Shown in pieces: positions 4,610 to 24,480 of a DNA stretch of 42,167 nucleotides (positions within the stretch are counted from its first letter, which is position 1; each line of letters begins with the position of its first letter). Below the pieces are notes generated by a model. It did not search any database. It was not told the origin of the DNA and was given only the letters and a program-made list of their open reading frames with translations. The stretch is from Pseudomonadota bacterium (GTDB lineage: Bacteria; Desulfobacterota; Binatia; Binatales; Binataceae). The stretch spans positions 1 through 42,167 of the forward strand of contig JAJPHI010000010.1 in assembly GCA_021325355.1 (NCBI GenBank). Direction: 5' to 3'. The position numbers and the translations under genes are program-made.

Positions 4610-6532
4610 ATGTCCACAGCGGTCGCCCAGGCGATTATCGGCACCGCCGGTCATATCGATCACGGCAAGACGGCGCTGATCCGCGCGCTCACGGGCCAGG
4701 ATACCGATCGCCTGAAGGAGGAAAAGGAACGCGGCATTTCGATCGACCTCGGATTCGCGTTCCTGACTCTGCCCGACGGCACCCGGGCCGGGATCATCGA
4801 CGTTCCCGGGCACGAGCGCTTTATCCGTAACATGCTGGCCGGCGCTCACGGCGTCGATCTGGTCCTGTTTACGATCGCCGCGGACGACGGGATCATGCCG
4901 CAGAGCGAAGAGCATCTCGATATTCTCCATCTGCTCGGCGTGCGACGCGGCATCTTTGTGATCACCAAGGCGGACCTCGTCGATAACGCGCGGATCGCGG
5001 CGGTGCGCGAGGACATCGAGATTCTGGCTGACGGCACCAGCCTCGAGGGCGCGCCAATCCTCGCCGTCGCCGCCCCTGCCGGAATTGGGCTTGAACCGCT
5101 GCGGGCAGAGATCACGCGCCAACTGACCGGTTTCCAGGCGCGGCGCCCGACCGGGCTCTTTCGCCTGCCGGTTGACCGCGCGTTCGTGATCAAAGGCCAC
5201 GGCACGGTGGTGACGGGAACCGCGATGGGGGCCGGCGTACGGGTCGGACAGAAGCTGCGGGTGATGCCTGCCGGCGACGAGGCGCGCGTCCGCTCGATCC
5301 AGGTGCACGGCGAAAGTGTCGAGAGTGCGTCGGCCTGCCAGCGCGTCGCGCTGAACCTCGCGGGCGTCGAAAAAACCCATCTGCAACGCGGCGACGTATT
5401 GACCGACGACGGTCTCACTCTCACCACGACGCGACTCGACGCGCGGATTGAAATACGCCCCGGCAGCAAGCGCCGACTGCAGCATAACCAGCGCGTGCGC
5501 TTCTTTATCGGCGCCGCCGAGACGCTTGCGCGCGCAATCCTGCTCGGCCGCGAAGAAATCGGACCGAAAGAATCAGGCCTCGCGCAGCTCGTGCTCGACG
5601 ATGCGGTGGTGGCGCTCAACGGCGATCGCTTCGTCATTCGCGACGAAACCAATTCCCGCACGCTCGGCGGCGGTGTCGTGCTGAATCCGCTCGGCCGCCG
5701 TTCGCGGCGGCCGCTGGAGAGCTACATTACCGATCTCGCGGCGCTCGCCAACGGCCTCAGCGCTGCGTCAATCGAAGCGCTGCTGCGATTGCAGAATGAG
5801 CTGGCACTGCCGATCCGGCGGATCGCCGAGCTGTTCAATGTGCCAACGGACGAGGTCGCCGCGGCCGTACGCGAGGGACGGTTCGTGCGGCTCTCGCTCG
5901 GCGACGAAGAGGGCTACACCACAGCGGGCAAATGGAATCGTCTCAAGGATGAGGCGGTCGAGGCAGTCGACCGCCACCATCGCGATCAACCGTCGGCGGC
6001 GGGTCTCGAGATGGAAGCGCTGCGCGCGCAAATCTCGAGCGCAGTGGCGCCGCGAGCTTTTCGAGCGGTGTTGGATCGCCTGGTGCAGGAAACCGAGTTG
6101 GTCCGCGAGGACAATCTGGTCCGACGGCGATCACACAAGGCCACGCTGCACGGCGATACCGCGGCGCTCGGTCGCCGCGTCGCGACGCTGCTACAGGAGA
6201 GCGGGTTTCAGCCGCCCGATCCGCGACAGATGGCCGAAACGCTGAAGCTCGCGGCCGGTGACCTGGCGCGTCTGCGCGAGGTCCTGGCGACGCTCGAGCG
6301 CGAGGGCCAGGTGGTCAAGATCGCGAGCGACCTTTATTTCGCCCGCGAGCCCTTCGAGGCGGCCAGAGACAAGCTGCTCAACTACCTGGCGACGCACGGC
6401 GAGATTACCGCCGCAACCTACCGCGACCAGCTCAGCGCCTCGCGAAAATACGCGATCGCGCTGCTCGATTATTTCGACCATACCGGCCTGACGACGCGGG
6501 TCGGCGATCTTCGTCGTCTGCGCCGACACTAG
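4610..6532 (+). CDS. selB: Selenocysteine-specific translation elongation factor SelB
   Basis: A 640-residue GTPase that delivers selenocysteyl-tRNA to UGA codons followed by a SECIS hairpin. The G1 motif GHIDHGKT is at residues 14-21, the G3 motif DVPGH at 64-68, and TKAD at 119-122 replaces NKxD. EF-Tu-like beta-barrel domains follow to about residue 350. The C-terminal third contains the winged-helix repeats that bind SECIS RNA (for example [19 protein letters not shown] and the final [20 protein letters not shown] segment). Its length is close to that of bacterial SelB. No selA, selD, tRNA-Sec or recognisable selenoprotein lies in the window. It is 34 bp downstream of the LEH-like gene without a clear Shine-Dalgarno and converges on ppa with 17 bp between. 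Confidence 0.95.
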
Positions 6533-11816: not shown

Positions 11817-12218
11817 TCAGGCTGGCTTGAACTTCACCAGCGTGTGCTCCGGCGTAACGTCGTCGAAGCAGACCGTCACCGGCATTCCCACCTTGACCAT
11901 CTCGGGCGGAGCCTCGATGTTGGTCGTCATCCGCGGACCTTCTTCGAGCTCGACGATCGCGAGCACATAAGGCTTGTCGGCAAAGGAGCGCGTCGCCGCG
12001 CGACGCACCACGGTATAGCTGTAGACCCGGCCGCGGCCGCTGACCGGCTTCCATTGAAGCTCGTCGCTCAGACAATGGGGGCAGCGATCGCGCGGATAAT
12101 AGATAAACGCCTGGCATCCACCGCACTGTTGAAGCTGCAGTCGATGGGCTTTGGCGGCCTCCCAGAAGGGACGGCTGGTGGCCGTCGGTTTGGGTAGGGG
12201 TTTCGTGTATTCGCTCAT
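11817..12218 (-). CDS. DUF35 OB-fold/zinc-ribbon acyl-CoA-associated protein
   Basis: A 133-residue protein of the Zn-ribbon/OB-fold (DUF35) family, which acts as a scaffold and CoA-binding partner of thiolase-superfamily enzymes. The zinc ribbon uses Cys 32, 35, 46 and 49 (CGGC and CPHC), followed by an OB fold (GRGRVYSYTVVRR, PYVLAIVELEEG, VTVCFDDV). The start ATG overlaps the stop of the upstream thiolase-like gene as ATGA, so the two are translationally coupled and very likely form a stoichiometric complex. Comparable pairs include archaeal thiolase/DUF35/HMG-CoA synthase complexes and the Ltp2-ChsH2 steroid side-chain aldolase of actinobacteria. The in-frame upstream extension lies in the thiolase gene and is not used. 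Confidence 0.88.
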   Translation of the reverse strand: MSEYTKPLPKPTATSRPFWEAAKAHRLQLQQCGGCQAFIYYPRDRCPHCLSDELQWKPVSGRGRVYSYTVVRRAATRSFADKPYVLAIVELEEGPRMTTNIEAPPEMVKVGMPVTVCFDDVTPEHTLVKFKPA

Positions 12219-13375
12219 GATCGCCGCTCCAGAATCAGACTGACCTGCTCGCTCATGATGCCGCCGTTGCCGTTGACATGCGCGAGCGTCGCGTTCCTGA
12301 CCTGGCGTCCCTCGCCGCGGCCCATCAGTTGACGGATGCCCTCGGTGACGTGACTCATCCCGCCGCCCAGGCCCGGTTGGCCAAACGAGAGCTGGCCGCC
12401 ATGCGTGTTGCAGGGAAAGTCGCCGGCATACGAGAGGTCGTGCTCCATCACGAACGGTCCGCCATGACCTTTCTTGCAATAGCCGGAATCCTCGAGGGTC
12501 ACGAGCACCGTGATGGTATAGCAGTCGTACGGACAGACCAGGTCGATGTCCTTGCGCTCCACCCCGGCCATCTTGAAGGCCGCGTCCGCCGCCGGCTTGA
12601 TCGGCGATTCGGTCAGCGACGGCGCATAAGTGATCGAGGCGTGGTTGGCATATTCACCCGCCCCCAACAGCCATACCGGCGGATTTTTCGCCCTCTTGGC
12701 AATCTCGGGCGACGCCACGATCACCGCCGAGCCGCCACTGCACGGACTGACAATCTCGAACAGATGCAGCGGATCGCAAATCATGCGGGAGCTCAGCACA
12801 TCGTCGATGGTGAGCAGTTTGTCGCCGAAGGCGGCGAGCGGATTCTTGACCGCGCTCTTGCGCTGATCGACGGCAATCTTCGCCATCTGCTGCGGCGTGG
12901 TGCCGAACTCGTGCATGTGGCGATGAGCGATCATCGCATAGCCGCAATTCGCGCCGATATTGCCGTAGGGCGCTTCGAACTCGCGCTGGACCGAAACCAC
13001 CGGAACCTTCTGATCACCGATTTTGTTCAGATCGGCGACCAGGCAGATCACCGCATTGCACATCCCGGCAGCGATCGCCGCAGCCGCCCGCCAGATCATG
13101 CCGGCGGCGCTCGCTCCGCCGATATCAACGACATTGAGCATTCGCGGGTTCAGCCCGAGGACCTCCGCCAGGCTCGCCGGATAAATCATCCCCGGATCCG
13201 CAAACGGCATCCCGACCAGCAGCCCGTCAAGGTCGCGTTTGTCGAGACCCGCATCGTTGAGGACGTCGGCCGTCAGTTGCGCCATCAGTTTTAATGGGGT
13301 GACGCCGGGCGGCGCCTCTTTCCACGGCTTGAATTCCGCGATTCCGATCGCCGCCGCCTTGCCTTTGAGACTCAT
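12215..13375 (-). CDS. Thiolase-superfamily protein (SCPx/Ltp2-like), probably a lyase rather than a thiolase
   Basis: A 386-residue thiolase-fold protein. Family signatures are CPYDCYTITVLVTLEDSGYC (residues 281-300), CNTHGGQLSFGQPGLGGGM (322-340) and AHVNGNGG near the end. Where true thiolases carry the nucleophilic Cys (V-N-x-x-C-x-S-G), this protein reads DIGGASAAG (84-92) with no Cys. That is typical of the lipid-transfer-protein aldolase subgroup, which cleaves beta-hydroxyacyl-CoA side chains by retro-aldol chemistry. The ATGA-coupled DUF35 gene supports that reading. The start MSLKGKAAAI is set by GGGAG about 11 bases upstream; a longer frame to 13561 has no ribosome site. Substrate unknown; a steroid or branched acyl-CoA is plausible, and a CoA-ligand-binding non-enzymatic role cannot be excluded. 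Confidence 0.85.
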   Translation of the reverse strand: MSLKGKAAAIGIAEFKPWKEAPPGVTPLKLMAQLTADVLNDAGLDKRDLDGLLVGMPFADPGMIYPASLAEVLGLNPRMLNVVDIGGASAAGMIWRAAAAIAAGMCNAVICLVADLNKIGDQKVPVVSVQREFEAPYGNIGANCGYAMIAHRHMHEFGTTPQQMAKIAVDQRKSAVKNPLAAFGDKLLTIDDVLSSRMICDPLHLFEIVSPCSGGSAVIVASPEIAKRAKNPPVWLLGAGEYANHASITYAPSLTESPIKPAADAAFKMAGVERKDIDLVCPYDCYTITVLVTLEDSGYCKKGHGGPFVMEHDLSYAGDFPCNTHGGQLSFGQPGLGGGMSHVTEGIRQLMGRGEGRQVRNATLAHVNGNGGIMSEQVSLILERRS

Positions 13376-13487
13376 GACAGTTGCTTCTCCCTGACTTGAT
13401 CCGTATGCTCCCTGCGATTTTCCATCGACTAGCATGAATGGCGGTCGCGCAGGAAACGCCGACCGTCCCGAGCAGGGGAGCCGTGGA

Positions 13488-13667
13488 ATGGCCTTTATCA
13501 TGTGTGATGACCATAACGTTTCGGTCGAAGCCGACGGGATCGAGCCGGCCGCCGCGCGCAAGTTGATGCTGGCCGAGCCGCCGCCGAGTCCGAGCGTTAT
13601 CGAGCGCGAGGTGATTGAGTTCGGCCGGAGTCATCGCGATTGCAATATCCGAGTCCTCGCCGATTAA
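13488..13667 (+). CDS. Hypothetical 59-residue protein
   Basis: A short reading frame beginning MAFIMCDDHNVSVEADGIEP, preceded by GGGGAG (13475-13480) at 7-base spacing and ending in TAA. The C-terminal half contains PPPSPSVIEREVIEFGRSHR. It is not recognised. There is no signal peptide or membrane segment, and two Cys are widely spaced. It lies just upstream of the first DUF1329 copy and divergent from the thiolase-like gene, so it could be an accessory gene or chance. The good ribosome site is the main support. Confidence 0.5.
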   Translation: MAFIMCDDHNVSVEADGIEPAAARKLMLAEPPPSPSVIEREVIEFGRSHRDCNIRVLAD

Positions 13668-13868
13668 GGCAGGCGCTTGAACGGTTGCCGAGGAAATATG
13701 TTAACTTGGGAACCGATGGCGCCAGTCGCTGGTTATCCCGAACGCGGCCGCGATTGGCATGCAGTTTCTGGAAATCTGAAAGGAGAATGTTGAACGATTT
13801 GCCCTCGGTTCCGCCGTTGGAACGCGATGGCCGGATAAGTTGGAGCTACACGTAGGGAGGATTTATAG
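13668..13868 (+). promoter_or_regulatory. Promoter and leader of DUF1329 copy 1, with a possible leader peptide
   Basis: TTGAAC (13677-13682) and TTAACT (13701-13706) form a candidate sigma70 promoter at 18-bp spacing. The leader contains a 22-codon reading frame (13787-13855) starting ATG TTG AAC just behind AAAGGAG and stopping at TAG. That stop touches the GGGAGGA ribosome site (13855-13861) of copy 1. This arrangement could couple leader-peptide translation to copy 1 expression, but the AAAGGAG to ATG spacing is very short. Confidence 0.4.
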
Positions 13869-15221
13869 ATGATAAACAACCTAAGACGCCTACTGGCGGC
13901 GGGCGTGATCGTTGCCCTGCTGCCGGCGTTCGGATGGTCGCAGACGACCGACCGCAGCGAAGTTGATCAATGGGTCAAGGACACCGCCAGTCAGGGCGAG
14001 TTGCCGGTCGGCACCAAGATTACGACCTCGAACTGGCAGCAGTACAAGAACTACATGCCGCTCGGCATGCAAAAGCTCTTTGCCGGAACCTACTTCTGGA
14101 AGATTCCGCAGGATGCCGAGCTCGACATCGGCCCGACCATCAACAACTTCCTGCCACCGACGTGGAAGGACGCCACTGAGAAGTATGGCCCGCAGACCAC
14201 GGTCGAAGTGCTGCCCAACGGCCACTACGTGATGCACAACTATCACGGCGGCACGCCCTTCCCGAATCCGCAGGAACCCAACAAAGGCTGGAAGGTTCTC
14301 GCCAACGTTTTCTACGCCTACCAGCCAGCGGTGTACGTCAACAGTCCGGATAACGTCGGCTCGGTCTGGGCGGTTGATCGCTACGGCAACGTTAATGCGA
14401 CTACGATCGACGTAGTGTATCGATGGAGCTCGTACATCACCGATCCGCACTTCCCGCAGACGCTCACCTATGCGCCGGGGACCTGGTACACGGAATGGCT
14501 GATGGAAGAGACGCCCGAGCAGGCGCGCTACACCTCTTCGCTCAACCTTTTCTATATCGATCAGGAAAAGACCCCCTTCCCTGATACCTACGTCTTCGTT
14601 CCGGCGCTGCGTCGCTCGCTGCGGCTGGCCAACACCGCGCGATGCTCGCCGGTGTTCGGCTTCGACTGGAGCTATGACGACGCCAAGACCAACGGGTTCA
14701 ACGGCAGCACGTCGATTTACACCGGCGATTGGCTCGCCGACCGCAAGCTGGTCACCCTCGCCCACTTCAACCAGGACGGCGCGATTTTCCCGGACGGCTA
14801 CCTGATGCCGCTCGGGTTCCCCAAACCGTCATGGGGCAAATGGGAAGTGCGTGAACACTCGGTAACCGATATCCATCGCATCCCGAGCGAAGCGGCCGGC
14901 TATTGCTATTCCAGCCGCATCATCTACGCCGACAAGGAGCACTGGAACGGTAACTGGGTCGACCTGTTCGACTCCAACCACAAGCTGTGGAAGTCGATCG
15001 CCTACTACAACGATGGCGCCGACAACGTGCCGAATATCGGCAATTCGTGGGACGGCGTCTCTTCGATGGCCATGGATTTCCAGAATATGCACGAGACCGT
15101 ATGGTCCGGCTTCGGCAATCCGGCGAAGCGCAAGCCGTACCTCGGGATCAATGCACCGAAGGAGTATCTCGACGGTGTCAAATACGGCAGCCCGAGCGGT
15201 CTCTCGATGGTTATGCGCTGA
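13869..15221 (+). CDS. DUF1329-type secreted protein, tandem copy 1
   Basis: A 450-residue exported protein, the first of four tandem paralogs. The Sec signal peptide is MINNLRRLLAAGVIVALLPA followed by FGWSQ, with cleavage expected after GWS. Conserved blocks shared with the other copies are HNYHGGTPFPNPQEP, APGTWYTEW, YVFVPALRRSLRLANTARCS (the Arg-rich strip of DUF1329), NGFNGSTS, LMPLGFPKPSWGKWE, DIHRIPSEAAGYCYSSRIIY and MAMDFQNMHETVW. Two conserved Cys (ARCSP and GYCYS) could form a disulfide. DUF1329 proteins are periplasmic or outer-membrane-associated and often co-occur with DUF1302 and RND-type exporters in hydrophobic-compound metabolism; neither partner is here. GGGAGGA lies 7 bases before the ATG. 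The biochemical role is unknown. Confidence 0.78.
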   Translation: MINNLRRLLAAGVIVALLPAFGWSQTTDRSEVDQWVKDTASQGELPVGTKITTSNWQQYKNYMPLGMQKLFAGTYFWKIPQDAELDIGPTINNFLPPTWKDATEKYGPQTTVEVLPNGHYVMHNYHGGTPFPNPQEPNKGWKVLANVFYAYQPAVYVNSPDNVGSVWAVDRYGNVNATTIDVVYRWSSYITDPHFPQTLTYAPGTWYTEWLMEETPEQARYTSSLNLFYIDQEKTPFPDTYVFVPALRRSLRLANTARCSPVFGFDWSYDDAKTNGFNGSTSIYTGDWLADRKLVTLAHFNQDGAIFPDGYLMPLGFPKPSWGKWEVREHSVTDIHRIPSEAAGYCYSSRIIYADKEHWNGNWVDLFDSNHKLWKSIAYYNDGADNVPNIGNSWDGVSSMAMDFQNMHETVWSGFGNPAKRKPYLGINAPKEYLDGVKYGSPSGLSMVMR

Positions 15222-15263
15222 GTAAAGCGCTCTGAAACTCTGCCGGCGAGCGCTTGCCGGTCA

Positions 15264-15299
15264 AGACGGGACGCCTCACGGCGTCCCGTCTCTTTTTTT
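15264..15299 (+). terminator. Rho-independent terminator of DUF1329 copy 1
   Basis: A perfect 12-bp stem, AGACGGGACGCC (15264-15275) with GGCGTCCCGTCT (15280-15291), loop TCAC, then C and seven T. Its core GGGACGC/GCGTCCC recurs in the terminator after copy 3 and partly after copy 2. Confidence 0.95.
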
Positions 15300-15633
15300 C
15301 CATCTGCGAATCCCTCGATCAACCTTTGACGCGGCCGCAATCGCGCCGCTTACCTCCACCGGAGCGCGGTCGCGTAGCGACACGGCGAAAAACCAAATTT
15401 TGTCGGAACTCCGGCGCCTGCCGGAGGGTTGATACTGTGAGGCGCTATTCAGTTCATGTGCTCCTCAATCCAATTCAAGCGGAAAGGAGGTCGCCCTATC
15501 GAGCGATAGCTGGCGTCCGGCGTGTGGAGGACGGCCGGACTAACGTTCCCTGGCGCCGGGGGATGCGCCGGTTCTTTTGACGCGGTGGATGCGGTGATTC
15601 AGGCATCCCAACCCCAGGAGCTCAGGACGTTGT
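15300..15633 (+). promoter_or_regulatory. Leader region of DUF1329 copy 2
   Basis: 334 bp without a credible gene. It contains a 7-bp hairpin CTCCGGC/GCCGGAG (15409-15426), an AAAGGAGG element (15483-15490) with no start codon behind it, and the palindrome CTATCGAGCGATAG (15496-15509). A similar GGAGG followed by TTATCGA occurs in the leader of copy 3 (17211-17234). AGGA at 15624-15627 serves the ATG at 15634. No convincing sigma70 promoter was found by eye. Confidence 0.4.
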
Positions 15634-16980
15634 ATGAAGGCTCTAGCACGATTATTGGCGCTGGCGATGATAGTGGCGTTGGCCCCGTCATACGCCTGGT
15701 CACAGTCGACCGACCGCAGTGCAATGGATCAGTGGATGAAGGATAGCGCCAATCAGGGCACTATCCCGGTCGGTACGAAAATCACGATGGCGAACTGGCA
15801 GCAGTACAAACAGTATCTGCCGCTAGGGATGCAAAAGCTGTTCGAGGGTACTTACTTCTGGAAGATGCCCCAGGACGTCGAGTTGGACGTCGGGCCGACC
15901 ATCAATAATTTCCTGCCGACCACCTGGAAAAATGCCACCGAGAAGTACGGCTCGCAAACGAGCGTCAAACTGCTGCCGAACGGCCACTATGAATTGGTCA
16001 ATTACCACGGTGGCACGCCCTTCCCTAATCCGCAGGAGCCGTACAAGGGTTGGAAAGTGATGACCAACGTCTTCTACGGCTTCGTGCCCGCAATCTACGT
16101 CAACAGCCCGAGCAATTACGGTTCGGTTTGGGCTATCGACCGTTTCGGCAACGTCAACCAGACGACGCTGGACGTGGTCTATCGTTGGAGCGACTACGTC
16201 ACCGATGCCAATGTGCCCCACAATCTGACTTACGCCCCGGGCACCTGGTATACCGAGTGGGGCATGGAGGAAACTCCCGAGCAGGCCCGCTACACGGCCT
16301 CGCTCAGCCTGTTCTTTAACGACCAGGAGGCGCATCCGTACCCCGATACTTACGTGTTTGTGCCGGCGCTGCGCCGCTCGCTGCGTCTGTCCAGCACGGC
16401 GCGATGCTCGCCGGTGTTCGGCTTCGACTGGACCTATGACGATGCCAAGACCAACGGCTTCAACGGCAGCACCTCAACCTACACGGCGGACTATCTGGGC
16501 GATCGCAAGATCCTGACCCTGGCGCACTTCGATCAGGAAGGCGCGATCTTTCCCAACGGCTACCTGATGCCGCTCGGCTTCCCCAAACCTTCGTGGGGTA
16601 AATGGGAACTGCGCGATATGGCGATCGCCGATATCCATCGTATCCCCAGTGAGGCGGCCGGCTATTGCTACTCGAGCCGGATCATCTACGCCGACAAAGA
16701 ACACTGGAACGGCGACTGGGTCGATCTGTATGACTCGAACCACAAGCTATGGAAGTCGATTGCCTACTACAACGATGCCGGTCCGGTGCCCGGTTACGGT
16801 GATATGTGGGACGGCGTCGCCTCGATGGCGATGGATTTCCAGAATTCCCACGAAACCGTCTGGTCCGGTTTCGGCAACCCGGGGAAAGTCAAACCCTATC
16901 TCGACACCAATGTGCCGCGCGAATACTTCGACGGCAACAAATACGGGAGTCCCGGCGGTCTGCAGATGATCATGCAATAG
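15634..16980 (+). CDS. DUF1329-type secreted protein, tandem copy 2
   Basis: A 448-residue paralog. The signal peptide is MKALARLLALAMIVALAPSY followed by AWSQ. All shared blocks are present: NYHGGTPFPNPQEP, APGTWYTEWGMEETPEQARY, YVFVPALRRSLRLSSTARCS, NGFNGSTS, PLGFPKPSWGKWE, AAGYCYSSRIIYADKEHWNG and GSPGGLQMIMQ. It is distinctive at about residues 105-125 (TSVKLLPNGHYELVNYHGG, where copies 1 and 3 have TTVEVLPNGHYVMHNYHGG), and it ends in Gln rather than Arg. It has its own leader and terminator, so it can be expressed independently. The predicted location is the periplasm or outer-membrane inner face, since no lipobox is present. Function unknown. Confidence 0.78.
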   Translation: MKALARLLALAMIVALAPSYAWSQSTDRSAMDQWMKDSANQGTIPVGTKITMANWQQYKQYLPLGMQKLFEGTYFWKMPQDVELDVGPTINNFLPTTWKNATEKYGSQTSVKLLPNGHYELVNYHGGTPFPNPQEPYKGWKVMTNVFYGFVPAIYVNSPSNYGSVWAIDRFGNVNQTTLDVVYRWSDYVTDANVPHNLTYAPGTWYTEWGMEETPEQARYTASLSLFFNDQEAHPYPDTYVFVPALRRSLRLSSTARCSPVFGFDWTYDDAKTNGFNGSTSTYTADYLGDRKILTLAHFDQEGAIFPNGYLMPLGFPKPSWGKWELRDMAIADIHRIPSEAAGYCYSSRIIYADKEHWNGDWVDLYDSNHKLWKSIAYYNDAGPVPGYGDMWDGVASMAMDFQNSHETVWSGFGNPGKVKPYLDTNVPREYFDGNKYGSPGGLQMIMQ

Positions 16981-17020
16981 TGGGCAGAACTTAAGGCATC
17001 GGGCGACCGATGCCGGCTGC

Positions 17021-17055
17021 GGGCGGAACGCTTGCAAGCGTCCCGCCCTTTTTTT
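17021..17055 (+). terminator. Rho-independent terminator of DUF1329 copy 2
   Basis: GGGCGGAACGCTT (17021-17033) pairs with AAGCGTCCCGCCC (17036-17048) with one A-C mismatch, followed by seven T (17049-17055). Confidence 0.92.
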
Positions 17056-17339
17056 GCCGCATCCGCTCTGGCTTCGGCCTGACGCCAGAAGCCAATCAGG
17101 CGCGGTTTGGAAGGTCAGGAGCGTCGGGAACCTTTGCCATCGTTCAACTGTTACAAGTTAAGAATTTTGGGTTTGTTTTTTGGCCAATCTTTGGCTATTT
17201 CAACGACGCGAGGAGGAGCCTTATCGAAGAATAATCGAAGGAAAGGTAAAGCGCTCTTAATGGAACGTTGGTTACTTCGGGGTGTTGAAACGACTTGCCG
17301 GCTTCCTCGCGAAGCCCGGCCATGAGGAGCAGGGGACCG
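17056..17339 (+). promoter_or_regulatory. Leader region of DUF1329 copy 3
   Basis: 284 bp with no convincing gene. It is unusually AT-rich around 17150-17210. TTGTTT (17172-17177) and TATTTC at 17-bp spacing are a possible promoter. AGGAGGAGCC is followed by TTATCGAAGAATAA (17211-17234), resembling the element in the copy 2 leader. A near-perfect hairpin GCCGGCTTC/GAAGCCCGGC (about 17299-17321) lies directly before the GAGGAG ribosome site. Confidence 0.4.
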
Positions 17340-18689
17340 ATGTTGAAAGTCTTCAGTCGCTTACTGGCAGCAGGGGTCATAATCGCCTTGCTGCCCTCGC
17401 TCGGATGGTCGCAATCGACCGACCGCAGCGAAATGGATCAATGGATCAAGGATACGGCCAACCAGGGCGACCTGCCGGTCGGCACCAAGATCACGATGTC
17501 CAACTGGCAGCAGTACAAGAATTTCCTGCCGCTGGGCATGCAGAAGCTGTTTGAGGGGACCTACTTCTGGAAGATGCCGCAGGATGTCGAGCTCGATGTC
17601 GGCCCGACCATCAACAACTTCCTGCCGGCGACCTGGAAAGATGCGACCGAAAAATATGGTCCGCAGACCACGGTCGAAGTGCTGCCCAACGGCCACTACG
17701 TGATGCACAACTATCATGGCGGCACGCCCTTCCCGAATCCGCAGGAACCCAACAAGGGCTGGAAGGTGATGGCCAACGCATTCTGGGCCTTCGTTCCGGC
17801 GATCTACGTCAACACGCCGAATAACGTCGGTTCCGTGTGGGCCGTCGACCGCTACGGCAACGTCAACCGTACCACGCTCGATATCGTGTACCGCTGGAGC
17901 TCGTACGTTACCGATGCCAATGTCCCGCACGACCTGAACTATGCCCCCGGCACCTGGTACACCGAGTGGGGTATGGAAGAGCAGCCGGAGCAGGCGCGCT
18001 ACACCGCTTCGCTGAGCCTCTTCTACATCGATCAGGAAGCCCATCCGTTCGCCGATACTTACGTCTTCGTCCCGGCTCTGCGGCGTTCGCTGCGTCTGTC
18101 GAGCACGGCGCGATGCTCGCCGGTCTTCGGTTTTGACTGGACCTACGACGACGCCAAGACCAACGGCTTCAATGGCAGCACGTCAATCTACACCGCCGAC
18201 TTCCTCGGCGATCGCAAGATCCTGACGCTTTCACACTTCAACCAGGAAGGCGCGGTCTTTCCGGACGGTTACCTGATGCCGCTCGGGTTCCCCAAGCCCT
18301 CGTGGGGCAAGTGGGAAGCTCGGCTGCACGCCGTGGCCGATATTCATCGGATTCCGAGCGAAAGCGCCGGATACTGCTATTCGAGCCGCATCATCTATGC
18401 GGATCGCGAGCATTGGAACGGCAACTGGGTTGACCTCTACGATTCCAACCGGAAGCTGTGGAAGTCGATTGCCTATTACAATGATGCCGGTAACGTGCCC
18501 GGTTACGGCGACATGTGGGATGGCGTTGCCTCGATGGCGATGGATTTCCAGAACATGCACGAAACCGTATGGTGCGGATTCGGCAACGATGCCAAGCAGA
18601 AGCCGTATCTCGATGCCAACGCGCCGAAGGAATTCTTCGACGGCGTGAAGTACGGCAGCCCGGGCGGTTTGCAGATGATCATGCGCTAG
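17340..18689 (+). CDS. DUF1329-type secreted protein, tandem copy 3
   Basis: A 449-residue paralog and probably the closest to copy 1. The signal peptide is MLKVFSRLLAAGVIIALLPS followed by LGWSQ. Copies 1 and 3 share the identical protein segment TTVEVLPNGHYVMHNYHGG and the following PQEPNKGWKV, encoded by nearly identical DNA (see findings). The other family blocks, including YVFVPALRRSLRLSSTARCS and DIHRIPSESAGYCYSSRIIY, are intact. The start MLKVF is chosen by alignment with copy 1 and the AGGAG 11 bases upstream; an in-frame extension to 17295 would put charged residues before the signal peptide. It is monocistronic, with a terminator at 18740-18771. Function unknown. Confidence 0.78.
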   Translation: MLKVFSRLLAAGVIIALLPSLGWSQSTDRSEMDQWIKDTANQGDLPVGTKITMSNWQQYKNFLPLGMQKLFEGTYFWKMPQDVELDVGPTINNFLPATWKDATEKYGPQTTVEVLPNGHYVMHNYHGGTPFPNPQEPNKGWKVMANAFWAFVPAIYVNTPNNVGSVWAVDRYGNVNRTTLDIVYRWSSYVTDANVPHDLNYAPGTWYTEWGMEEQPEQARYTASLSLFYIDQEAHPFADTYVFVPALRRSLRLSSTARCSPVFGFDWTYDDAKTNGFNGSTSIYTADFLGDRKILTLSHFNQEGAVFPDGYLMPLGFPKPSWGKWEARLHAVADIHRIPSESAGYCYSSRIIYADREHWNGNWVDLYDSNRKLWKSIAYYNDAGNVPGYGDMWDGVASMAMDFQNMHETVWCGFGNDAKQKPYLDANAPKEFFDGVKYGSPGGLQMIMR

Positions 18690-18739
18690 TCGCTCTTCAA
18701 CGGGCTCGCCCCGGGCGAGCCGGGACAGCGCCTGAAGCA

Positions 18740-18771
18740 ACGGGACGCGGCCACCGCGTCCCGTTTTTTTT
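18740..18771 (+). terminator. Rho-independent terminator of DUF1329 copy 3
   Basis: A perfect 11-bp stem, ACGGGACGCGG (18740-18750) with CCGCGTCCCGT (18754-18764), loop CCA, then a run of eight T (18764-18771). Confidence 0.95.
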
Positions 18772-18907
18772 CAACGAAAAAGTCCCTTGACAACTAAAAT
18801 TTTCGAGATGACAAGTCGTAATTGTTCGTTAACTTTTCGTGAGAACGGGGGGCCGCTCTCGCGATAACCCGGCGCCTCTCGGCGCCGGCAGGGCCGAGGG
18901 GAACATC
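18772..18907 (+). promoter_or_regulatory. Promoter/leader region of DUF1329 copy 4
   Basis: A consensus -35 hexamer TTGACA lies at 18787-18792 in an AT-rich stretch, but no good -10 box is found at 16-18 bp. A perfect 8-bp hairpin CCGGCGCC/GGCGCCGG with loop TCTC (18869-18888) is placed just before the GAGGGG ribosome site, comparable to the pre-RBS hairpin of copy 3. Confidence 0.4.
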
Positions 18908-20266
18908 ATGAAAGGATGGGTGCGTTTCCTGGCGGCAGCGCTCGCTTTGATGGTGCTGCCGTCGCTGGGCTGGTCGCAGGTGTCGACCGACCGTAGCGAG
19001 TTTGACCAATGGGTCAAGGACTCCGCCAACCAAGGTCAGCTACCGATCGGCACCAAGATCACGATGGCCAACTGGCAGCAGTACAAGAACTTCCTGCCGT
19101 TCGGCATGGTCAAGCTCTTCCAGGGCCAGTACTACTGGAAGATGCCGCAGGACGTCGAGATGGACGTCGGACCGGTGGTTAACGACTTCCTGCTCAAGAG
19201 CTGGGTCGAGCGCACGGAGAAGTACGCCGGTCAGGTGTCGGTCGAAGTGTTACCCAACGGACACTATGTGCTGCACAACTATCATGGCGGCACACCGTTT
19301 CCCCATCCGACGGATCCCTACAAAGGGTGGAAGGCGATGGCCAATGTGTATTGGCCGGCGGGCCCGCAATTGTATGTCAATGCGCCTGAGAACTACGGTT
19401 CCGTGTGGTCGGTGGACCGTTTCGGCAATATCAATCAGTCAACCTTCGACGTGGTCTATCGCGTCAGCTACAGCGACTACGTGAGCGATCCCGGCATCCC
19501 GCCGGAGAGTCTCGATTACGCTCCCGGCACCTGGTACACCGAGTGGGGTATGCAGGAGAGCCCCGAGCAGGCGCGCTACACCGCGTCCTTGAGCCTCTAC
19601 TTCATTGACCAGGAGGCGCATCCGTATCCCGATACGTTTGTGTTCGTCCCGGCTCTCCGCCGTTCGCTGCGCCTGGCCAGCACGGCACGATGCTCGCCGG
19701 TGTTCGGCTTCGATTGGGCCTACGACGACGCCAAGGGCAACGGGTTCAACGGCACCACTTCAATCTTCACCGCCGACTATCTGGGCGATCGCAACATCCT
19801 GACGCTCGCGCACTTCAACCAGGACGGCGCGATTTTCCCGGACGGCTACCTGATGCCGCTCGGCTTTCCCAAGCCCTCGTGGGGCAAGTGGGAAGCGCGG
19901 CCGATGGCCGTAATCGACGTCCATCGCATCCCGAGCGAATCCTCGGGTTATTGCTACTCGGCGCGCATCATCTACGCCGATAAGGAGCACTGGGGCGGTG
20001 ACTGGGTCGATTTGTTCGACGCCAACAGGAAATTCTGGAAGTCGATTTCCTATTACAACGGCGCCGGCGACGTTCCGAACATGGGGCATATGTGGAAGGG
20101 CGTCGCTTCGATGGCCATGGATTTCCAGAACTCGCACGAAACCGTATGGTGCGGCTTCGGTAATCCGTGGAAGCGCAATCCGTACATCGATGTCAATGTG
20201 CCGAAGGAATTTCTGAACGGCGCGAAATATGGCAGCCCCGGCGGTCTGCAGATGATCATGCGCTAA
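18908..20266 (+). CDS. DUF1329-type secreted protein, tandem copy 4 (most divergent)
   Basis: A 452-residue paralog. The signal peptide is MKGWVRFLAAALALMVLPSL followed by GWSQ. Family blocks are kept (HNYHGGTPFPHPTDPYKGWK, APGTWYTEWGMQESPEQARY, FVFVPALRRSLRLASTARCS, NGFNGTTS, PLGFPKPSWGKWE, SSGYCYSARIIYADKEHWGG, KYGSPGGLQMIMR). It differs by FGMVKLFQGQYYWK in place of LGMQKLFEGTYFWK and by an inserted SYSDYVSDPGIPPESLDY loop. It therefore seems to have separated first or evolved faster. One 53-bp stretch is identical to copy 1 DNA. GAGGGGAAC precedes the ATG; the longer upstream frame crosses the leader hairpin and is rejected. Confidence 0.78.
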   Translation: MKGWVRFLAAALALMVLPSLGWSQVSTDRSEFDQWVKDSANQGQLPIGTKITMANWQQYKNFLPFGMVKLFQGQYYWKMPQDVEMDVGPVVNDFLLKSWVERTEKYAGQVSVEVLPNGHYVLHNYHGGTPFPHPTDPYKGWKAMANVYWPAGPQLYVNAPENYGSVWSVDRFGNINQSTFDVVYRVSYSDYVSDPGIPPESLDYAPGTWYTEWGMQESPEQARYTASLSLYFIDQEAHPYPDTFVFVPALRRSLRLASTARCSPVFGFDWAYDDAKGNGFNGTTSIFTADYLGDRNILTLAHFNQDGAIFPDGYLMPLGFPKPSWGKWEARPMAVIDVHRIPSESSGYCYSARIIYADKEHWGGDWVDLFDANRKFWKSISYYNGAGDVPNMGHMWKGVASMAMDFQNSHETVWCGFGNPWKRNPYIDVNVPKEFLNGAKYGSPGGLQMIMR

Positions 20267-20292
20267 AGCGGCGCGGCCGCGAATAAACCGCA

Positions 20293-20318
20293 GGGGCGCG
20301 ACCCGATGGTCGCGCCCC
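20293..20318. terminator. Hairpin between convergent DUF1329 copy 4 and acyl-CoA dehydrogenase
   Basis: A perfect 11-bp stem, GGGGCGCGACC (20293-20303) with GGTCGCGCCCC (20308-20318) and loop CGAT, lies between two gene ends. Only TT follows on the plus strand, so unlike copies 1-3 this is not a classical U-tract terminator; it may stop transcription from both sides weakly. Confidence 0.6.
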
Positions 20319-20343
20319 TTCGCCTCTCAGGCCAACTCTTTAT

Positions 20344-21471
20344 CTAGCTCAGCAGGACGCGCGCGACGGTCTCCCGATGGATCGGCGCGTTGCCGAGATT
20401 AGCCTCCCCCGCGAGCGCCCGCCGATGGTACAGGTGGCAGTCGTGCTCCCAGGTAAAACCGATACCGCCGTGCACCTGGATCGATTCCGAAGTCACGTTC
20501 TTCGCCATATCCGAGGCATACGCCTTGGCCATCGGCACGGCGCTCTGCGCCTCGGGCACCCGTTCATCCACGGTCCATGCCGCGTAGTAGGCCAGCGAGC
20601 GGGCATTTTCGACGGCGACCATCATATCGACGCACTTATGCTTGACCGCCTGGAATGAGCCGATCGGCTTGCCGAACTGAACGCGCGTCTTGGCATAGTC
20701 GACCGCGATATCGAGCGACTTCTGCGCCGTCCCGACCATCTCGGTCGAGAGCGCTGACGTCGCGACATCAAGTACCCGGCGCAATACCGCCCAGCCATTG
20801 TCGGGAGTGCCGATCACCGTATCGGCCGCAACATTGTCGAGCTTCAGGTGGCACATCCGCCGCGTCATATCGACCGTTTTGAGCTGAGTGATCGACAGGC
20901 CGGGCGCATTGGACGGCACGCACAACAGAGTGATGCCATTTTCACCGGCGCCACCGGTGCGCGCGGCGACGATAATCGCATCGGCTACGTGCGCGTCCGG
21001 CACGAAGAATTTCTCGCCGTTCAGCGTATAGCCGGAACCTTTTTTGGCGGCCTTGAGCTCGATCCCACCGGCATCGAAACGCCCCGACGCCTCGGCAATC
21101 GCGACGGTCGGAATAAACTTACCCTCGGCGATCTTCGGCAAAAATTCCTTCTTGAGGGCATCCGATCCGCCTTCGAGGAGCGCAGGTACGCCCATCAGGG
21201 CCGCCGCGAAGAATGGTCCGGGCGCCAGCGCCTTGCCCAGTTCTTCGACGATCACCGTCATATCCAGAAAGGTTCCGTGAGCGCCGCCGTACTGTTCGGG
21301 TATCAGGAGCCCCGGCCATCCCTGCTGCACGAGTTTCTGCCAGAAGGCTGGATCGTGCGCCGTCGCGTCCGCCATCATCTGGCGGACGAACTTGGTGGAG
21401 CAGTTGTCCGCTAAAAAGCGCTTCGCCGCATCACGAAGCATCTCTTGTTCTTCAGAAAAGCCAAAATCCAA
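20344..21471 (-). CDS. Acyl-CoA dehydrogenase family protein
   Basis: A 375-residue flavoprotein of the acyl-CoA dehydrogenase family, which introduces the alpha-beta double bond into acyl-CoA thioesters. N-terminal helices (DFGFSEEQEMLRDAAKRFLA), the middle beta domain (VAIAEASGRFDAGGIELKA, with YTLNGEKFFVPDAHVADAI) and the C-terminal helical domain (KTRVQFGKPIGSFQAVKHKC, IQVHGGIGFTWEHDCHLYHR) are all visible. The loop normally reading TEP-x-x-GSD is AEASGRFDAG, as in the divergent subunits of heteromeric steroid-type dehydrogenases; a partner subunit is not adjacent. Start chosen: TTG at 21471, because AAGGAGA lies 7 bases upstream and the family begins M-D-F-x-F. The upstream ATG at 21558 has no ribosome site. 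Confidence 0.87.
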   Translation of the reverse strand: MDFGFSEEQEMLRDAAKRFLADNCSTKFVRQMMADATAHDPAFWQKLVQQGWPGLLIPEQYGGAHGTFLDMTVIVEELGKALAPGPFFAAALMGVPALLEGGSDALKKEFLPKIAEGKFIPTVAIAEASGRFDAGGIELKAAKKGSGYTLNGEKFFVPDAHVADAIIVAARTGGAGENGITLLCVPSNAPGLSITQLKTVDMTRRMCHLKLDNVAADTVIGTPDNGWAVLRRVLDVATSALSTEMVGTAQKSLDIAVDYAKTRVQFGKPIGSFQAVKHKCVDMMVAVENARSLAYYAAWTVDERVPEAQSAVPMAKAYASDMAKNVTSESIQVHGGIGFTWEHDCHLYHRRALAGEANLGNAPIHRETVARVLLS

Positions 21472-21627
21472 GGTTGGATCTCCTTCGTTACCCAGGCAAC
21501 GCCCGACGCCGTCTGGCTTTGAGCTACCATTAACGATCGCGCCGCTGCAAGTATGCAATTTTAATCGCCGCCGGCGCCAAAGCCCACTCGCCGGCGCCCG
21601 CAGCCATCGGATGCCGCCCGCGGTTTC

Positions 21628-23348: not shown

Positions 23349-24480
23349 TCAGGCGGTCGCGGCTTCCGCGTCGCGGCGCCGCACGCCCATCAGGTAAGCC
23401 TCGATGAACTGGTCGATATCGCCATCCAGCACCGCCGCGGTGTTGCCGACTTCGACACCGGTGCGATGGTCCTTGACCATCTGGTAGGGATGCAGGACGT
23501 AGGAGCGGATCTGACTGCCCCAGGCGATATCCTTTTTTTCCTTGCTGAACTTTTCCAGTTCCTCGCGTTTTTTGCGCTGCTCGAGCTCGAACAGCCGCGC
23601 CCGCAGAATCTTCATCGCCATCGCCCGATTCTTGTGCTGCGAGCGTTCGTTCTGACAGGTCACCACGATACCGGTCGGGAGATGCGTGAAACGCACCGCC
23701 GAATCGGTTTTGTTGACGTGCTGACCGCCCGCCCCTGACGCGCGAAACGTATCGATCCGCAGGTCCGCCGGATTGATCACCACCTCGACCTTGTCGTCGA
23801 TCGCCGGAAAGACGAACACCGACGCGAACGAGGTATGACGACGGGCATTGGCGTCGAACGGCGAGATGCGCACCAGCCGATGGATCCCCGCTTCAGCCTT
23901 AAGGTAGCCGTAGGCGTAATCACCCTCGACCTCGAAGGTCGCATTCTTGATACCAGCGCCGTCGCCCGGTTGCAGGTCGGCGATTTCGCTCTTGAAGCCG
24001 TGCCGCTCGGCCCAGCGGAGATACAACCGCAGCAGCATCTCGGCCCAGTCCTGCGCTTCGGTGCCGCCGGCTCCCGGATGAATTGTCACGATCGCGCCCA
24101 GGCGATCGTATTCGCCACCGAGCATCACCTGGAGTTCCTGACGCTCCAGCTCGGCGCGCGCCGAGGTCAATGATCGGGCGGTTTCATGAGCCGCTTCGGA
24201 CTCCTCGGCGCCCTCCTCTTCGGCCATCGTGAAGAAAAGTCGCGCTTCCTCGATCGCTTTGCGCAGCTTGTCGTAACCGGCAAGCTGCGCGCGGATCCGG
24301 TCCTGTTCGCGCAGCGTGGTCTGCGCCGCTTCGGGCCGCTCCCAAAAATCCGCCCTGGCGGATTGTTCCTCGAGCTCGGTCAGGCGTGCGGTCTGGGTGG
24401 CGACGTCAAAGACGCCTCCCGAGCCCTTCGCAGCGGGCCTCGAGGTCGAGTAATTGTTCGCGCATTTCCGCCAAGGTCAT
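23349..24480 (-). CDS. prfB: Peptide chain release factor 2, expressed by programmed +1 frameshift
   Basis: RF2 reads stop codons UGA and UAA and releases the finished peptide. The gene is in two frames. Frame one starts at 24480 ([20 protein letters not shown] then GRRL) behind AGGAG and hits TGA at 24408-24406 after 24 codons. The second frame resumes at GAC (24407) and runs to 23349, giving 376 residues in all. The recoding site GGG AGG CGT CTT TGA C copies the E. coli arrangement of internal Shine-Dalgarno, CTT slip codon and UGA-C. The body has the RF2 tripeptide SPF ([12 protein letters not shown]) and the catalytic GGQ ([17 protein letters not shown]). Low RF2 favours frameshifting, so the gene autoregulates. 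Confidence 0.95.
24405..24420 (-). promoter_or_regulatory. prfB programmed +1 frameshift signal
   Basis: On the minus strand the bases are GGGAGG (24420-24415), CGT, CTT (24411-24409), TGA (24408-24406), with C at 24405. The internal Shine-Dalgarno is 3 bases from the slip codon, the same spacing as in E. coli prfB. Slippage from CUU to UUU places the ribosome in the GAC frame. Confidence 0.93.

Follow-up and report, generated by a model that had tools for sequence, protein, structure and literature searches.

A stretch of 42,167 nucleotides from a Binataceae draft genome (assembly GCA_021325355.1, contig JAJPHI010000010.1; hereafter the window, analysed over its whole 42 kb) carries an array of four tandem genes, c1–c4, whose products are exported proteins of the DUF1329 family (Pfam PF07044). 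We put at about even the chance that these proteins are periplasmic carrier or adaptor subunits for hydrophobic substrates, and that they share a few machines, encoded elsewhere in the genome, of the type described as AmeABCD in Castellaniella defragrans—that is, a DUF1302 protein, a DUF1329 protein, a COG4447/YCF48-like protein, and an HAE3 RND transporter (PMC6394551). The periplasmic passage of water-insoluble substrates in Gram-negative bacteria is poorly understood, and DUF1329 is still listed by Pfam as a protein of unknown function.

In the mechanism that we propose, each array gene would give rise to a soluble periplasmic DUF1329/LolA-like protein whose pair of cysteines (Cys) probably forms a disulfide. 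Such a protein would bind a hydrophobic molecule, or hand it over, between a DUF1302-like barrel in the outer membrane and an HAE3-like MMPL transporter in the inner membrane, the latter presumably acting with a YCF48-like partner. The carrier gene would have multiplied within the bacterial family and become mostly separated from the cassette, and several carriers, differing in specificity or expression, would be served by a few shared machines elsewhere in the chromosome. The flow may be uptake or efflux: Ame is described as an efflux system, and the reported growth phenotypes also fit uptake.

Four Exported DUF1329 Paralogs With a Conserved Cysteine Pair

The array consists of four consecutive genes on the forward strand (13869–20266):

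13869–15221, + strand: c1, DUF1329 protein of 450 residues with a Sec-type signal peptide; PF07044 score 88.6 bits
15634–16980, + strand: c2, DUF1329 protein of 448 residues; PF07044 score 90.4 bits
17340–18689, + strand: c3, DUF1329 protein of 449 residues from ATG; PF07044 score 99.8 bits (longer open reading frame, ORF)
18908–20266, + strand: c4, DUF1329 protein of 452 residues from ATG; PF07044 score 85.6 bits (longer ORF)

The original prediction, made from the DNA sequence alone, of four tandem exported DUF1329 paralogs of 448–452 codons was borne out, as all four (450, 448, 449, and 452 codons) pass the curated Pfam cut-off for PF07044 (23.1 bits, whole-protein score) at 85.6–99.8 bits and begin with signal-peptide-like N-termini. 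For c3 and c4 the signal peptide starts at the ATG (17340 and 18908), making the starts of the longer ORFs (TTG at 17295 and GTG at 18839) less likely. Judged on composition alone, each of the four proteins carries an export signal, in the form of an N-terminal hydrophobic stretch (Kyte–Doolittle 2.15–2.39 over 15 residues) with no Cys within it, and a composition scan of the whole proteins revealed no second membrane-like stretch. Aromatic residues make up 15–16% of the mature proteins, a raw share with no background for comparison. The copies share conserved core blocks and are 69.9–83.5% identical in pairwise protein comparisons; at the nucleotide level they differ at 19–27% of positions, and the array is therefore not an artefact of repeat assembly.

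Two cysteines (positions 259 and 346 in c3), which lie in the motifs ARC and GYCY, recur throughout a 41-row set: all rows long enough to cover both positions keep the pair (39/39), while the remaining two rows end early after the first Cys, which both keep. Among 14 further DUF1329 proteins of the bacterial family, the pair is found in three (L087, L093, and L048) and 11 do not combine the two residues, including a cassette protein discussed below (G020:C53); a motif check of six more DUF1329 genes found both motifs in five and the first only in L091:5621. Because the pair is kept in the array rows and missing from most of those 14 further proteins, the array is assigned by motif to a Cys-pair DUF1329 subfamily, in which the two residues are probably joined as a disulfide. 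Two other DUF1329 genes, at L088 7615–9006 (G015) and L089 10691–12073 (G033), adjoin DUF1302 matches and encode proteins with a twin-arginine-like RRxF start, unlike those of the array.

No NCBIfam model matches c1–c4. Weak similarity beyond DUF1329 points to LolA-like carriers (PF17131 scores of 28.3, 30.0, 29.0, and 21.3 bits for c1–c4, at or below the 30-bit cut-off) and to PDB 3BK5, a profile match to an array protein at E 5e-4 for the whole sequence. These LolA_like matches in all four copies would also suit carriers that maintain the envelope by moving lipoproteins or lipids such as hopanoids, not catabolic substrates, all the more as the hopanoid transporter HpnN belongs to HAE3 (PMC6394551). 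A copy number that runs from 0 to about 38 within one bacterial family would be odd for such housekeeping, however, and one relative places a gene of this type in a monooxygenase context; we regard this explanation as very improbable.

Partner-Type Genes in the Source Genome and Its Relatives

A scan of the window proteins confirmed the earlier statement that no DUF1302 or RND partner lies beside the array, which is flanked instead by thiolase and acyl-CoA dehydrogenase (ACAD) genes and forms no contiguous four-gene cassette of the AmeABCD type. The absence is one of the window and not of the genome, since partner-type genes are present on other contigs. The source draft genome (3,357,406 bases in 35 contigs, 95.34% complete) holds eight DUF1329 genes in all and four HAE3-like MMPL genes (on C19, C32, and two on C20, from five match rows of which two represent one gene). 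In two cases a YCF48-like gene stands directly upstream of the MMPL gene (C19:216.6–219.8k and C20:152.3–155.8k), and these pairs score above the cut-offs of PF03176 and PF14870 (L063 and L065); thus, the MMPL and YCF48-like components of an AmeABCD-type system exist at the genome level. Contig C20 also carries two DUF1302-like genes, 72% identical to each other, and a DUF1302-like protein of the genome reached 34.6 bits when the genome was searched, against a cut-off of 23.2, and is 42% identical over 267 residues to a PF06980-positive protein of a relative (G021). None of the partner-type genes shares a contig with any of the eight DUF1329 genes; three of the DUF1329 contigs are short (C23, 14.9 kb; C22, 42.2 kb; C26, 41.9 kb), so that unseen neighbours are possible.

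Cassettes that unite these protein kinds occur in relatives. In G021:C31, DUF1329, YCF48, MMPL, and DUF1302 genes follow one another, all four products being above Pfam cut-offs and the DUF1329 protein having the Cys pair; relative to this cassette, MMPL proteins of the source genome are 56% and 48% identical and c1–c4 are 31–35% identical. A row of DUF1329 (with the Cys pair), YCF48, and MMPL genes is found in G012:C33, where the MMPL protein is 76% identical to that on C19 of the source genome. The order in G020:C53 is YCF48–MMPL–DUF1302–HEAT–DUF1329, with a DUF1329 protein of the canonical type; the HEAT-repeat protein of this cassette is encoded at L085 7860–9188 (- strand).

Across the bacterial family, the four genomes with at most one DUF1329 gene all lack HAE3-like (E ≤ 1e-40), DUF1302 (E ≤ 1e-3), and YCF48 (E ≤ 1e-6) matches, whereas an HAE3-like gene is present in 37/37 genomes with more than one (Fisher 1e-5). 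Correlations of match counts with DUF1329 are weak (Spearman 0.49 for HAE3-like, 0.40 for DUF1302, and 0.34 for YCF48). In five hand-picked genomes, six of the 94 DUF1329 genes have an HAE3-like MMPL gene no more than 5 kb away, where 1.6 are expected (p 0.006), with corresponding counts of 4 vs 1.1 at 3 kb and 7 vs 2.8 at 10 kb; two of the linked genes form one tandem pair. Linkage therefore exists in the Cys-pair subfamily, yet most copies, and the array clade with them, are unlinked.

Several observations weigh against shared Ame-type machines. The array itself lacks any linked partner gene, and among the 26 genes of the array clade (at least 56% identity, some on short contigs) a single one, in G034:C11, has an HAE3-like gene no more than 5 kb away, which is about chance. 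The four partner-less genomes represent three genera, and the co-occurrence may thus reflect few events. DUF1329 matches exceed HAE3-like ones by as much as 23:1, a ratio that fits sharing and equally a role unrelated to the pump. Of the transporters, two MMPL proteins were scanned and scored 100.6 and 105.4 bits, far short of the NCBIfam cut-off for HAE3 (TIGR00921, 351.9 bits), although HAE3 was nonetheless the best NCBIfam match of both. When the whole DUF1302-like protein was put through hmmscan, nothing in Pfam matched at a threshold as loose as E 10, and with this mixed record DUF1302 is the weakest of the partner assignments. The Cys-pair subfamily differs from canonical DUF1329, on which some of the published work is based. 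Finally, two AlphaFold models were unusable (mean predicted local distance difference test scores of 46.1 and 41.6); they were built on alignments of 14 and 12 rows drawn from the window proteins and loci L019–L026.

Separate Termination of the Array Genes

The array genes are separated by intergenic gaps of 412, 359, and 218 bp, and each copy is followed by a hairpin:

15264–15291, + strand: intrinsic terminator after c1; 12-bp stem, then a T tract
17021–17048, + strand: intrinsic terminator after c2; 11 pairs with one mismatch, then a T tract; a simpler scan does not list it
18736–18768, + strand: intrinsic terminator after c3; stem of 12–14 pairs depending on the scan, then a T tract
20292–20319, no strand assigned: hairpin between the convergent c4 and ACAD genes; no + strand U tract, terminator-like on the - strand only

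Both elements of the earlier description, namely U-tract terminators after copies 1–3 and a hairpin without a U tract after copy 4, were recovered, with the addition that the last hairpin reads as a terminator on the - strand, toward ACAD. Three of the four strong + strand terminators in the window follow c1, c2, and c3 (one more lies on the - strand), as compared with six strong sites in 266,964 strand-bases from eight other loci of the same genome, and 200 shuffles of the joined intergenic gaps yielded two strong sites altogether. With a looser scan of 13400–20700 the excess is far less striking (12 terminator-like sites vs 7.5 ± 3.0 in shuffles). In relatives, where genes were called by a custom ORF rule, a terminator falls within 200 bp of 10/21 array-clade genes (at least 55% identity), 3/11 other DUF1329 genes, and 18/295 control genes; when controls are limited to those followed by a gap of 100 bp or more, 9/169 have one (p about 1e-6 against the array clade, with rows that are related and not independent). 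Separate termination of the array copies is thus supported, and the copies may be open to individual control.

The further claim that each copy possesses its own leader fared less well. The upstream regions are indeed unalike, with no leader element shared among the copies or with the G020 copy apart from the terminator stems. Promoter-like sites in the array region do not exceed chance (one found vs 3.1 expected), and independent promoters are therefore not established.

Origin of the Copies and Family-Wide Expansion

Divergence among c1–c4, estimated by NG86, amounts to 0.11–0.21 nonsynonymous (dN) and 0.84–1.29 synonymous (dS) substitutions per site; the copies are old and under purifying selection. 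Signs of gene conversion are few, with one possible tract of about 95 nt between c1 and c3. These values bear on the possibility that all four copies have one and the same function and are retained for high output of one abundant periplasmic carrier. Identities of 70–84% with conserved core blocks would agree with such a dosage function, the strong terminators suit single-gene units, and a DUF1329 protein ranked fourth in one proteomic experiment on a benzene-degrading consortium (PMC13101534). The dS of about 0.8–1.3, the protein divergence of 16–30%, the differing upstream regions, and the scarcity of conversion beyond the short c1/c3 tract nevertheless speak against it, and we consider dosage unlikely.

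In a 41-row tree, c1 is sister to a copy from G020, a genome of the same genus, at a syntenic ACAD–FIST locus (support 96/93), and c4 is sister to a second G020 copy whose locus has a different make-up (100/99). Since c1 and c4 pair with different G020 copies, two or more of the paralogs are older than the separation of the two species. The c2 + c3 pair has support of 90/89 and is not starred, and the order among the c1, c4, and c2–c3 pairs is left unresolved by the tree. A c1/c4 hybrid produced by array contraction was considered as the source of the syntenic G020 copy, and identity along that copy shows no sign of it. The original prediction of a lineage-specific array calls for correction, as a simple recent burst is not what the tree portrays, and other genera hold tandem copies of their own. 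In G015, contig C1 has two complete DUF1329 copies and a fragment at the contig end, and C38 has a fragment at the contig start and one complete copy, which we infer to be one array broken by assembly; the complete G015 copies form a separate clade (100/100). Two or three DUF1329 copies also stand in tandem in G034, G016, G011, G021, and G025, and tandem growth of DUF1329 seems to have happened repeatedly. Nine viral stretches fitted a pattern, with no relative of the array among them, and the search of plasmids gave no match to the array.

The survey of copy number and neighbours in relatives that had been suggested at the outset revealed a larger story than the single array, namely a family-wide DUF1329 expansion in which most copies are unlinked to partners. 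A DUF1329 match is present in 39 of 41 genomes of the family, with a range of 0 to about 38 per genome, a median of 12, and at least 593 matches in total, whereas HAE3-like matches number 0–8; the counts refer to match rows, which include fragments, and those of the richest genomes are lower bounds. The upper end is 37, or 38 when G025 is listed apart. The genomes G024–G026 (genus g9) have 36–38 matches each, with a tandem triplet at G025:C22:35.7–40.3 kb. In a wider draw from the phylum, DUF1329 was detected in at least 64/198 genomes at E ≤ 1e-5. We did not find this expansion in print: full-text matches for DUF1329 include no title naming Binatota, and a Binatota paper (PMC8262859) is absent from those matches and, in the parts available, makes no mention of a transporter or outer membrane.

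With 0 to about 38 natural paralogs, sister genomes in which both they and the pump are missing, and a compact array, the family is well placed for testing directly, by comparison and by biochemistry, whether specificity resides in DUF1329. An extended form of the shared-machine proposal would be a modular platform in which up to about 38 interchangeable Cys-pair DUF1329 carriers, many of them single-gene units, dock on a few MMPL/DUF1302 machines. We offer this only tentatively, as possible but on the unlikely side; if true, one cell could reach many hydrophobic compounds, and the platform would be the hydrophobic counterpart of the orphan Bug proteins described below.

Relation to Known Systems

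Although the array had been put forward as a candidate for an undescribed system, it is better seen as a variant of a known, poorly understood kind of envelope transport, marked by the Cys pair, the lost cassette linkage, and the large copy number. The same protein kinds as in AmeABCD recur in the source genome (DUF1302 being the least certain), and the DUF1329 component of AmeABCD is predicted to be periplasmic. The Ame lineage is described as having conserved cassettes, in contrast to the unlinked four-copy array found here, with eight genes in total and a Cys pair in the array proteins. In functional terms, insertion in ameB reduced growth on monoterpenes and deletion of ameABCD reduced tolerance (PMC6394551), and elsewhere an MMPL protein with a LolA-like domain was up 42-fold on n-C28 alkane (PMC6304351).

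In Pseudomonas putida, PP_0765, PP_0766, PP_2018, and PP_2019 are required for the use of Tween 20, and the DUF1302 and DUF1329 proteins of this set are numbered apart from the periplasmic protein and the efflux transporter (PMC10866462). This related phenotype from genes numbered apart is a precedent for components working in trans; the set differs in having one DUF1329 protein, and no tandem array is described in the available parts of that report (PMC10866462). The "nanopod" cluster of the benzene-degrading strain ORM2a likewise combines a DUF1329 protein with one related to YCF48 and one of the MMPL type (PMC13101534), and DUF1329 is listed together with DUF1302 in Delftia nanopod preparations (PMC3110197). 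One DUF1329 protein is listed for each, and the array findings carry no bearing on nanopods. A DUF1329 deletion cited in PMC13101534 was looked for in a Delftia nanopod paper (PMC3958437) and not found there, and its phenotype, known only at second hand, is given no weight here.

A numerical likeness is provided by the orphan Bug/TctC proteins of TTT transporters, in which many periplasmic proteins, mostly unlinked, face few membrane partners (PMC5812351); Bordetella pertussis, for example, is credited with 76–81 Bug proteins vs two permease sets (PMC5812351). The protein family is unrelated and the ligands are other, so this comparison is an analogy only.

Genomic and Catabolic Context

Two genes flank the array and are treated as context, not as proven parts:

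12215–13561, - strand: lipid-transfer-protein-type thiolase, divergent from the array; PF22691; PDB 9myr "Nonspecific lipid-transfer protein" at 2.4e-103
20344–21558, - strand: ACAD, convergent with c4; family match, shared neighbour in relatives

An ACAD gene is near an array-clade DUF1329 gene in two of 18 relative loci, those of G020 (87% identical) and G035 (85%); in the latter the distance is 1.6 kb and an SDR-like gene intervenes. A catabolic cluster in G013:C103, made up of genes for an amidohydrolase, a Rieske oxygenase, a di-iron hydroxylase, two SDRs, an FMO-like protein, and a ferredoxin reductase, is flanked by an array-clade gene (60% identical to c2) and another DUF1329 gene. In G034:C11 the array-clade gene has the HAE3-like gene at a distance of 2.9 kb and an FMO-like gene at 1.2 kb. 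Other array-clade loci, judged from translations, adjoin unrelated genes (e.g., ATP synthase and ribosomal genes), and the weight of catabolic neighbours is limited by the richness of these genomes in catabolic genes.

The catabolic thiolase and ACAD neighbours would also be in keeping with array products that are secreted or periplasmic enzymes acting on hydrophobic substrates (e.g., hydrolases) and not transport parts, and PP_0765 and PP_0766 were once suspected of hydrolase activity (PMC10866462). We judge this improbable, given that no enzyme family was matched in Pfam or NCBIfam, that the weak further similarity is to LolA-like carriers and PDB 3BK5, and that relatives place DUF1329 genes in cassettes with transporters.

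Three further features of the window were recorded. The gene prfB for release factor 2 (23349–24480, - strand) has the classic signal for programmed frameshifting, CTTTGAC, at 24411, following codon 24 as counted from the ATG at 24480, and its ORF of 292 residues represents the downstream part only. Given a gene for the SelB elongation factor (4610–6532, + strand), selenoprotein synthesis by the organism is probable. The window also contains a second tandem duplication, a pair of Amidohydro_2 genes (301–2625, - strand), whose products are 71% identical over 384 residues.

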